A stretch of 64,000 nucleotides of DNA from a bacterium (GTDB lineage Bacteria > Bacteroidota > Ignavibacteria > Kapaibacteriales > UBA7675), in contig JAUIKM010000003.1 of NCBI GenBank assembly GCA_030430495.1, positions 1-64,000 on the forward strand. Reading direction: 5' to 3'. The notes under the pieces are model-generated. The model did not search any database, was not told the DNA's origin, and saw only the letters and a list, made by a program, of their open reading frames with translations. Shown piece by piece: positions 43,128-45,756 of the stretch. Position 1 is the first letter of the stretch. Each line of letters begins with the position of its first letter. Position numbers and translations under genes: made by a program.

Positions 43128-43190
43128 TACGTAAAACTGCGTACGAGCGGTGAGCCCCAAGGGCACGCCGCTCGTACGCAGTTTTACGTA
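43128..43190. repeat. 23-bp perfect inverted repeat (bidirectional hairpin)
   Basis: TACGTAAAACTGCGTACGAG plus CGG at 43128-43150 pairs without mismatch with 43168-43190 across a 17-base loop that itself holds GCCC-CAA-GGGC. The stem is much longer than common intrinsic terminators and has no clean T run (ATTTTG follows). It could end transcription of the ABC gene in both directions, or be the border of an inserted segment that contains the tRNA-like element. Confidence 0.85.
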
Positions 43191-43361: not shown

Positions 43362-43432
43362 TCCGGGGTAGTTCAGCGGCAGAACTCTCGGCTTGGACCG
43401 AGCAGGCGCTGGTTCGAATCCAGCTCCCGGAC
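43362..43432 (+). tRNA. tRNA-like element with a six-base anticodon loop
   Basis: All arms of a tRNA can be drawn: acceptor TCCGGGG/TCCCGGA (one G-T pair), T8-A9, D arm GTTC-AGCGGCA-GAAC, anticodon stem CTCGG/CCGAG, variable CAGGC, T arm GCTGG-TTCGAAT-CCAGC, then C. The anticodon loop is CTTGGA, six bases instead of seven, so the anticodon is unclear: UGG (Pro) if base 38 is missing, or UUG (Gln) if base 33 is missing. The body resembles bacterial tRNA-Asn more than tRNA-Pro or tRNA-Gln. CCA is not encoded. It lies 18 bases before the start codon of a large unknown gene in the same direction. Confidence 0.75.
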
Positions 43433-43449
43433 AAGGAACGGAAACAGGC

Positions 43450-45756
43450 ATGCCGGAAGACAACGCTTCACCTCAGCATCGACAGGTTGGCTTTGAATAC
43501 ATCAAGAGCCGCCTGGCTCGCGCTTTACTGACCGGCCTGCAGGATCACGACGAAGCGACCAGAAATCGCGCTAAGGAAAAAGCAGCAAAATGGCTCGCGG
43601 CACTACACACAATTCTTGACGGCGGCAGTAGATTTGGTTCACGCACACCAATCAGAGGCATTCCGGCCTGGGTTACTCTGGAAGTACTCACAGGTGGATT
43701 TGCCACAGAGAACTTTCCCGCAGGCGGTGAACTTCAGCAACATGAGATTGAACTTCTGTCAAAAGTGGGAACGATAGAACCCGGCAGAGAGCGCGAAGCG
43801 ATTAACACCTGGTATTTAACTGAAGCAGGACTGAATGAATTAAACAAACTGCTGGATTCGAATTGTTACAAGGTCACCTATCCGGAAGAAGGTGCATTGC
43901 TCTCGATTGCATACCTGATGCGACACGGACGCATTGACGCAGCTCGCAACGTCATTACCACGCTTGCACCGTTCATGCACAAACTGCGATTTTTCCCCAG
44001 GACAAGCTCACTCCCCCGAAAGCAGGATGATACCATATTTTTGAGAGATGTCGCTGCAACCATTGATGATGTAAGTTCAGTCAAAGTCAACGAACACCTG
44101 ACCGCACAGAAGGAAGCGGTGACGGTTTGGGCTGTTCATCACGATCGCGTGGTAGCTCTGTTTCTGGAGACGCTGGTCGACGGACGCCCAGGCGGAACTT
44201 TTACGGCAGATTGGCGAAAACGCGCCAGACGGTTGCAGCGCGAGTACAACAATTTGCGATCAACACACAAACTCGGAGGCAAAGCGCACAAAACCGGCGG
44301 GCACGCATCGCAGTTGCGAGAGTTCATGATGAAAGCGGCAGATACACCCCAATTGATAAACAACGCCGACCTTAAACGCATTCAACACATCTTAACCTGT
44401 TTTGTTAACAAACGAGGAGTTCCCGGTTCCCGTCAACATCTGGAGTATCGCAAACGCCAGGCCGCTGATGTAAGCGCAGCTACTCATCGTGAACTTGCCG
44501 GCGCGGTTGTGCAACGACTGGAACTGTATGACCCAACCGACGGGTTAAAGTCGACTGACAAGGTGTTGAAGAACATCAGCTCGGAAGAATCTGACTATTT
44601 CAATTTACCCGCAGGGTCTCCTGTGCCTGACTCGATAAAACGCAAAGTTAATCGGTGTCGCCGAGGAACAATGGAAGACCTGGTGAGTGACGGAATCATT
44701 CCATCCACGGAGCTCGTTGCCGCAAAATTGCCGCTGCTAACGGCTGATATTCGCGCGCGCGGCTTTGCAGACCGCGCTCTGCAAGACCTTTACGCCGCCA
44801 TTTATCGCTCTTTTCGCCGACGCAGATCGCTGTTGCTGTTAAATCTGCAGAGCCAGGTAAAGATAGACGAGTTGCCCTGGATCGCTGCAATAGAAGAATT
44901 CCGAACTGAAGATATGGCTTCGGCCGCGGCTGCCATGGCAAAGCTAAAAGATACGGTTAAACTGGCTCTCAATGCCTTTCCGCACACCACCCTGCCGAAC
45001 AAATTTCTGCGCGAATTACGAGCGTTGTCACAGAGTGCAGGAGCCCAAATCCCCTTTGTAGATGAACTGGCCGCCGACATCTTCACCGGCACTTTCACGT
45101 TTAACTTTGTTAAAGCCGCGCACCTGGCTGCGGAGTTGCTGCAAGACTCGTTGTACGCGCGCTACTACGACATTGACTATCAGGAAGTGCTTCGGATTGA
45201 TGTTCCGACAGAGCCGAAAGCCAGTTCCAACTCGCGAGTTCCGTCCAGCTCTGCCGCATTTACGGCGCTATGCCGCCGACGGGCAAAAACAAACGGCGGA
45301 AACATGCGGGCCATGAACGGAATGATACTGGAACAGCAACAGATAGTTACCAGCCAGAATCTGGCGGGATTGTTTGTGCAACTGAATATGTTTGCAGATT
45401 TGCAAGACCATCTGCCGGACATGGCGCGACGCTGTTTTATCTGGATCTGCCGTCGTCTTCAGATGAAACAAACGCGCGTTCACGCAAGACTCATTGCCAT
45501 CAAGAATTCAGCATACGCCTGGCGCCATATGTTGTTTTATTTGTCGCTGCTCGAAACGTCCACCCTTGCCGAGTTCTGTCATTGGATGCGCCAACACCTG
45601 CAAAAGCAGCGGGCAGAGTTCCAGGTCCTGTTTCATCCCGCCGTCAATGAACTGCTGTTGCTCGTAGCAGGGCAACAAACATTTGAATGCAACTCCGATC
45701 AAATCGCAAACAGAATATTTCTTGGCTGGTCGGATACGCGACACTGGCTGATGTGA
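43450..45756 (+). CDS. large protein of unknown function downstream of the tRNA-like element
   Basis: 768 residues from ATG 43450; AAGGAA lies 15-20 bases upstream and may serve as a weak ribosome-binding site. An upstream TTG start (43393) would lie inside the tRNA-like element and is rejected. There is no signal peptide and no membrane segment. Notable, probably conserved-looking stretches are FEYIKSRLARALLTGLQDHD, GSRTPIRGIPAWVTLEVLTG, YRSFRRRRSLLLLNLQSQVK, TTLPNKFLRELRALSQSAGA, GMILEQQQIVTSQNLAGLF and RCFIWICRRLQMKQTRVHAR. The protein is basic and helix-rich with arginine clusters, so RNA binding is plausible. I believe similar proteins occur in other phyla, but I cannot name a family. 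GC content looks lower than in the genes before it, which fits acquisition from outside. Confidence 0.85.
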   Translation: MPEDNASPQHRQVGFEYIKSRLARALLTGLQDHDEATRNRAKEKAAKWLAALHTILDGGSRFGSRTPIRGIPAWVTLEVLTGGFATENFPAGGELQQHEIELLSKVGTIEPGREREAINTWYLTEAGLNELNKLLDSNCYKVTYPEEGALLSIAYLMRHGRIDAARNVITTLAPFMHKLRFFPRTSSLPRKQDDTIFLRDVAATIDDVSSVKVNEHLTAQKEAVTVWAVHHDRVVALFLETLVDGRPGGTFTADWRKRARRLQREYNNLRSTHKLGGKAHKTGGHASQLREFMMKAADTPQLINNADLKRIQHILTCFVNKRGVPGSRQHLEYRKRQAADVSAATHRELAGAVVQRLELYDPTDGLKSTDKVLKNISSEESDYFNLPAGSPVPDSIKRKVNRCRRGTMEDLVSDGIIPSTELVAAKLPLLTADIRARGFADRALQDLYAAIYRSFRRRRSLLLLNLQSQVKIDELPWIAAIEEFRTEDMASAAAAMAKLKDTVKLALNAFPHTTLPNKFLRELRALSQSAGAQIPFVDELAADIFTGTFTFNFVKAAHLAAELLQDSLYARYYDIDYQEVLRIDVPTEPKASSNSRVPSSSAAFTALCRRRAKTNGGNMRAMNGMILEQQQIVTSQNLAGLFVQLNMFADLQDHLPDMARRCFIWICRRLQMKQTRVHARLIAIKNSAYAWRHMLFYLSLLETSTLAEFCHWMRQHLQKQRAEFQVLFHPAVNELLLLVAGQQTFECNSDQIANRIFLGWSDTRHWLM

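Follow-up and report, generated by a model that had tools for sequence, protein, structure and literature searches.

A tRNA-like RNA and a large orphan protein very probably form a paired two-component unit. The hallmark of the family is a conserved RNA body combined with a free anticodon loop, and the unit is patchily spread over at least nine phyla. The representative examined here lies in a stretch of 64,000 nucleotides from a bacterial contig (the window), with the RNA at positions 43362..43432 of the + strand and the 768-aa protein encoded downstream on the same strand at 43450..45756.

The window RNA was recognized by ARAGORN, Rfam, a cloverleaf scan and visual inspection. ARAGORN reports a tRNA of undetermined type with a two-letter anticodon at 43362-43432 (+), and cannot name it because the anticodon loop comprises six bases, CTTGGA. 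The Rfam tRNA model matches with 52 bits (E 2.9e-8). All 21 of 21 stem pairs are formed, by eye as well as by scan: TCCGGGG/TCCCGGA for the acceptor stem (43362-43368 / 43425-43431, + strand), GTTC/GAAC, CTCGG/CCGAG for the anticodon stem enclosing the six-base loop, and GCTGG/CCAGC. The T loop reads TTCGAAT, the discriminator base is the C at 43432, and CCA is not encoded. Both the TTC in the T loop and the GG in the D loop are present. As no perfect cloverleaf occurred in 260,870 bases of control DNA, the window cloverleaf is not a product of chance. The preliminary description, made from the letters of the window, had claimed a complete tRNA fold with a six-base loop, and this held.

The host genome contains an ordinary tRNA set, including a separate ordinary tRNA-Gln(TTG) (L029). 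Furthermore, the family covariance model R1 assigns 79.9 bits to the window RNA and at most 63.3 bits to every other tRNA in the genome. For these two reasons the window RNA is apparently not among the decoding tRNAs of the genome and probably fills no visible gap. Two further odd tRNAs are found in the same genome (L033, C64:212845-212918; L034, C28:15016-15088). In both, the acceptor is GGGGGTG, CCA is encoded and the six-pair anticodon stem is mismatched; mobile-element genes (serine recombinase, VirD4-like) adjoin them. A perfect 22-base inverted repeat, ACGTAAAACTGCGTACGAGCGG, the sole such pair in the window, is located at 43129-43189 directly past an ABC transporter gene.

The partner protein was described beforehand as a 768-residue product without known domain, directly downstream in the same direction, encoded by a gene poorer in GC than its left neighbours. 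These claims also held: the GC content is 52% compared with 56-60% in the left neighbours, and no match was detected in Pfam, NCBIfam or PADLOC, nor to solved structures, with an empty profile search of PDB sequences. Searches of PHROGs and NCBIfam returned nothing convincing. AlphaFold2 yields a confident all-helical model (pLDDT 90.4, pTM 0.86). Foldseek searches of solved and viral structures with the full model and with the C part (residues 282-768) gave no hit at E <= 0.001; the N part was not folded alone and a known fold there is not excluded. The best structure-search matches are weak (VIA Z 7.3 over 49 residues; 5.5 over 201 residues). All matches of the C part are weak (Z <= 5.5); those to HEAT-type proteins suggest without proving that the predicted structure may be an alpha-solenoid.

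Family proteins measure 700-870 aa. Conservation is maximal at residues 65-96, 449-480, 513-576 and 609-640, and the invariant polar residues include E146, R459, Q469, N517, E628, Q629, N637, K685, Y689 and R692. In two planctomycetes the gene is split near residue 280 into two adjacent open frames (G856:C60:23182-25514 and G991:C194:1209-3426), an arrangement which may point to a two-domain protein. Among 57 members, PADLOC matched only three, weakly, with the model C3a124 of unknown function (best E 5e-4).

Relatives are widespread and sparse. The first scans of genome and viral contigs, made with the single sequence, were negative. Plasmids searched by tblastn then yielded six relatives covering 84-100% of the query at 31-37% identity, with hosts in Embleya, Streptomyces and Curtobacterium. 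With a seven-protein alignment as the query, at least 289 relatives were found in species genomes, of which 80 loci were kept for analysis. The kept loci belong to Proteobacteria, Actinobacteria, Planctomycetes, Myxococcota, Acidobacteria, Melainabacteria, Armatimonadota, Verrucomicrobia, Chloroflexota and Eremiobacterota. Relatives span essentially the whole protein at 31-45% identity, and some are plasmid-borne. In even samples, relatives are carried by 1/397 other Pseudomonadota, 9/292 further Planctomycetota and 2/295 other Actinomycetota. None was found in the organism's own order or phylum (60 relatives and 394 phylum genomes), in phages and viral contigs, or in E. coli genomes searched at the DNA level.

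The RNA accompanies the protein at most of these loci. Five of the plasmid relatives have a directly adjoining upstream tRNA on the same strand by Rfam, and the sixth (L038) by ARAGORN. Overall, 75 of 87 loci, namely 74 of 86 homologue loci and the window, have a same-strand cloverleaf closely upstream of the protein gene in which 20-21 of the 21 stem pairs form. These 75 loci contain 92 tRNA-like RNAs of 69-74 bases. Eleven additional loci were met after the RNA family had been defined; the RNA is present in seven and absent from four, all four from the planctomycete sample. The preliminary description had suggested that the pair may be one unit and had proposed an inspection of the regions upstream of homologues. 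This check was run and the suggestion held: most homologues have a tRNA-like RNA in the same orientation, with covarying stems.

The RNA fold is under selection, as attested by its pairing and by covariation in stems and tertiary contacts. In an alignment of 32 members, 99.6% of the stem cells are paired (slid controls, 31-48%), and changes on both sides occur in 14 of the 21 pairs, amounting to 139 cells against a shuffled mean of 43. At the tertiary pair 18-55, 18 members have G-U and 12 have A-G; 19-56 is G-C in 31 of 32. The family covariance model scores the locus RNA highest in each of 13 RNA-bearing genomes (78.7-90.8 bits). T-loop TTC and D-loop GG are kept by most non-actinobacterial members. 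In Actinobacteria, GGCRG replaces TTCGA in the T loop, AG replaces GG in the D loop, and T54 and T55 are absent. Some members encode CCA. The standard tRNA finder calls these RNAs ordinary Arg, Pro, Lys, SeC or undetermined tRNAs.

The anticodon loop behaves differently from the body. Eighty-seven loops have seven bases and five have six; the later loci add two six-base loops and one five-base loop. One point of the preliminary description, its emphasis on the six-base loop, needs correction, since that loop is not the hallmark: most members have a seven-base loop with an arbitrary anticodon, and the five- and six-base loops are recurrent variants. The 87 seven-base loops contain 26 anticodons without any isotype pattern, while C32 and U33 are invariant. 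On the protein tree, positions 34-37 underwent about 20 parsimony changes each, compared with a mean of 4 elsewhere. Positions 20, 26, 57 and 59 are nearly as variable, so a lack of constraint suffices to explain the rate at 34-37. Within the otherwise free stretch 34-37, position 34 shows an unexplained bias: 79 of 87 loops have a pyrimidine there.

The RNA body co-evolves with the protein and the anticodon does not. Distances between RNA bodies and between proteins are strongly correlated (Mantel/Spearman rho 0.80, 0/500 permutations), and the correlation persists within each of two family halves (0.48 and 0.35, 0/1000 each). For the anticodon loop the corresponding value over the whole family is 0.03 (127/500 permutations), with a weak trend inside Actinobacteria (0.19, 6/1000). 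Furthermore, where two or three RNA copies stand in tandem, the anticodons differ in 15 of 16 neighbouring pairs, with 0.73 differences per site at positions 34-37 and 0.077 elsewhere. The RNA is therefore a dedicated tRNA mimic, probably a non-decoding one; the latter attribute is inferred, in the absence of aminoacylation or ribosome data.

RNA and mRNA very likely share one transcript of which the mimic is the 5′ end, an inference from sequence alone without expression data. At 54 actinobacterial-type loci, the profile of the upstream sequences contains a GAAA box together with TTG around -40 and TA around -16 relative to the tRNA start, a sigma-70-like promoter from which transcription would begin at the tRNA 5′ end. 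The start codon, taken as the first one in frame, comes 1-3 bases past the discriminator base in 52 of 75 loci. Spacings of 1 to 72 bases occur, and where they leave room there is often a Shine-Dalgarno-like stretch. There is no space for a second promoter, and RNA and mRNA would therefore reside on one transcript. In the window, 17 bases separate the discriminator base at 43432 from the ATG at 43450. This spacer, AAGGAACGGAAACAGGC (43433..43449, + strand), contains the Shine-Dalgarno-like AAGGA and is too short for a promoter or terminator. A promoter scan before the window tRNA found no site, which is weak evidence given that the promoter type of the organism is not known. If RNase Z cuts at its usual place, most actinobacterial mRNAs could be leaderless. 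The preliminary description had offered two alternatives, a tRNA mimic with its protein and a tRNA used as 5′ leader; both are partly upheld, by the co-evolving mimic and by the RNA as transcript 5′ end.

A minority of members have no RNA in cis: 12 of the 87 loci (six myxobacteria, three planctomycetes, one Obscuribacterales, one armatimonad and one Comamonas), and likewise the four later loci. In the 12 RNA-less genomes, a search for a copy in trans gave a best family-model match of 70.1 bits, and wherever a match was read it proved to be an ordinary tRNA. No other Rfam RNA was found upstream of the RNA-less loci. These members cluster on the tree (two changes versus 11.4 expected), so the absence reflects one or two losses or gains. 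No residues separating RNA-bearing from RNA-less proteins were identified. Since this sub-clade retains the protein without RNA in cis, or in trans above the scores of ordinary tRNAs, the RNA is not always needed.

No neighbour gene is conserved, the largest neighbour cluster consisting of antisense shadow ORFs, and no conserved integrase lies near the unit. PADLOC matches among the neighbours are few and mostly to generic models, without a clear defence island. RtcB is present in 25 of the 33 host genomes examined and adjoins the unit in only two. In Undibacterium sp. TS12 (L055, 1755-9173) RtcB, RtcA and DUF6847, in this order, precede the tRNA mimic and the orphan protein, and a second RtcB comes after them; in the other genome, that of a planctomycete (L044), RtcB is found next after the protein gene. 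RtcB adjacency is a lead towards RNA damage; it is no proof. In bacteria, operons with RtcB are responsive to cleaved tRNAs and may also encode Y RNAs, whose tRNA-like part has been suggested to inhibit an anticodon nuclease by competition (PMC7790460).

Two side observations concern host genomes. In the planctomycete L044, which has no upstream mimic, four or five tRNA-like genes whose anticodons differ stand in tandem on the minus strand (2030-2439), 2.6 kb from the homologue; they resemble the family model only weakly, two of them scoring 32 and 17.5 bits. The genomes of L051 (Comamonas) and L062 (Corallococcus) contain unusually many RtcB matches, seven and eight respectively, some being pieces of one gene.

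How might such a unit work? In the scheme we favour, RNA polymerase would start at the tRNA 5′ end and read on into the open reading frame, and RNase P and RNase Z would excise the mimic; both steps are inferred from sequence alone, the second without processing data. The mature mimic would then be bound by the protein, leaving an anticodon loop exposed and unused for decoding. A physical complex is likely, an inference made without binding data. The remaining steps are speculative: anticodon nucleases of phages, plasmids or rival bacteria would cut the loop of the mimic, and cleavage would alter the activity of the protein, triggering a translation-stress, repair or self-sacrifice response.

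As to function, a bait or sensor of tRNA damage is the proposal we prefer, though it is less likely than not; it remains speculative and has not been shown. The loop freedom, the length changes and the differing tandem loops are compatible with a bait directed at enzymes which recognize or cleave anticodon loops. They may also reflect a loop that simply does not matter. The points cited in support are the tandem anticodon differences and the RtcB neighbours in L055 and L044. Those which count against the explanation are the RNA-less sub-clade, the rarity of RtcB adjacency, the unconserved neighbours and a loop variation that could be mere lack of constraint. Taken as a whole, an RNA-protein unit with the bait or sensor as its speculative last step is, by a small margin, more probable than the contrary. 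The safest reading, which is likely though inferred, is that of a dedicated RNA partner made on the same transcript as the protein, with the ratio fixed by co-transcription. A bolder reading envisages a widespread undescribed ribonucleoprotein class, an RNA-based translation guard in which the free non-decoding loop is the bait and a new-fold alpha-solenoid reads the damage; this too is less likely than not.

Among the rival explanations, a purely cis-acting leader is still possible. Here the fold would control mRNA processing or translation, or autorepression by the protein, and the free RNA would have no function. This is supported by the position of the RNA, which as the putative transcript 5′ end abuts the start codon at most loci, and by the RNA-less sub-clade, in which the protein can work without RNA. 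However, a leader has no need for two or three tandem copies with different loops or for a D-loop/T-loop tertiary contact maintained by covariation, and the start-codon spacing is variable (1-72 bases), often with a Shine-Dalgarno-like stretch when there is room.

A type III-like toxin-antitoxin system, where an upstream RNA, sometimes in tandem, directly inhibits a toxin protein, is unlikely; neither toxicity nor neutralization has been shown. The layout matches, with a structured, at times repeated RNA followed by a protein gene and a single promoter before both, and so does the patchy spread, partly on plasmids. Known type III toxins are small endoRNases of the ToxN fold. However, no ToxN-type family was matched among 57 relatives (Pfam, PADLOC), and RNA-less homologues are hard to reconcile with a toxin that needs an RNA antitoxin.

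A genuine charged tRNA decoding its anticodon, for mistranslation or codon reassignment and with the protein as helper, is very unlikely. The complete cloverleaf, the CCA encoded in some members and the ever-present U33 would fit, but 26 anticodons without isotype pattern, five- and six-base loops, actinobacterial T loops devoid of T54 and T55, and a body independent of the anticodon count against it. Lastly, tRNA genes are common integration sites and the partner gene has a lower GC content than its left neighbours, but coincidence, or the tRNA gene as integration site of an element carrying the protein, is all but excluded by one tRNA family that co-evolves with the protein and lies close to it in constant orientation across at least nine phyla, by the lack of a conserved integrase nearby and by the held-out loci (RNA in 7/11).

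The paired RNA-protein unit remains our preferred reading. tRNAs are the best-catalogued RNA genes. Our search of the open-licence literature found no description of the pair, and an earlier mention of the protein is not excluded. No described family has the defining features tested. The joint evolution of RNA and protein suggests a new kind of RNA-protein machine and not an ordinary tRNA located next to a gene by accident; such a machine would be at hand if a tRNA family were shown to be the dedicated partner of an orphan protein. With two genes in about 2.5 kb, the unit provides a simple handle for asking if tRNA decoys help bacteria to sense or block attack on translation. In addition, annotated anticodons of these RNA genes are unfit for codon-usage or genetic-code studies.

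Several known systems invite comparison. The family RNA has the four cloverleaf stems of a canonical tRNA but not the isotype-matched, conserved anticodon in a seven-base loop. tRNA-Sec, tRNA-Pyl and allo-tRNAs likewise display non-canonical loops and D-loop/T-loop contacts without the usual partners (review PMC7609411); those, however, decode. Where PMC7609411 discusses anticodon loops and unusual tRNAs, it does not mention any tRNA mimic that is linked to a protein and varies in its anticodon. In tmRNA-SmpB, a tRNA mimic also has a dedicated protein, whereas the family RNA lacks an mRNA-like part and a tag reading frame, and the proteins are unrelated. The family protein does not meet the PADLOC criterion for known anti-phage defence systems. 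Type III toxin-antitoxin systems (ToxIN, CptIN, TenpIN) share the layout of an RNA gene, single or tandem, directly upstream under one promoter. Their RNA is a pseudoknot and not a tRNA cloverleaf, and the family protein, at 700-870 aa, has no ToxN match.

The Ro60 (Rsr)/Y RNA (YrlA) system, often found in rtcBA operons, differs in several respects. No TROVE domain was detected in 57 family members at E <= 0.1, and the protein itself has neither a TROVE nor a vWA match. Y RNA has a Ro-binding stem, whereas the family RNA, 69-74 bases long, is simply a full cloverleaf located at the putative transcript 5′ end. Unlike an RtcB repair operon, the unit is linked to RtcB at only two loci (2/33 genomes). 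Ro60 is a ring of HEAT-like repeats; the family model is all-alpha with weak HEAT-type matches only (C part, Z <= 5.5). Nevertheless, both proteins are largely helical, and both systems place a small RNA with a tRNA-like part beside a dedicated protein, with a link to RNA repair (PMC7790460).
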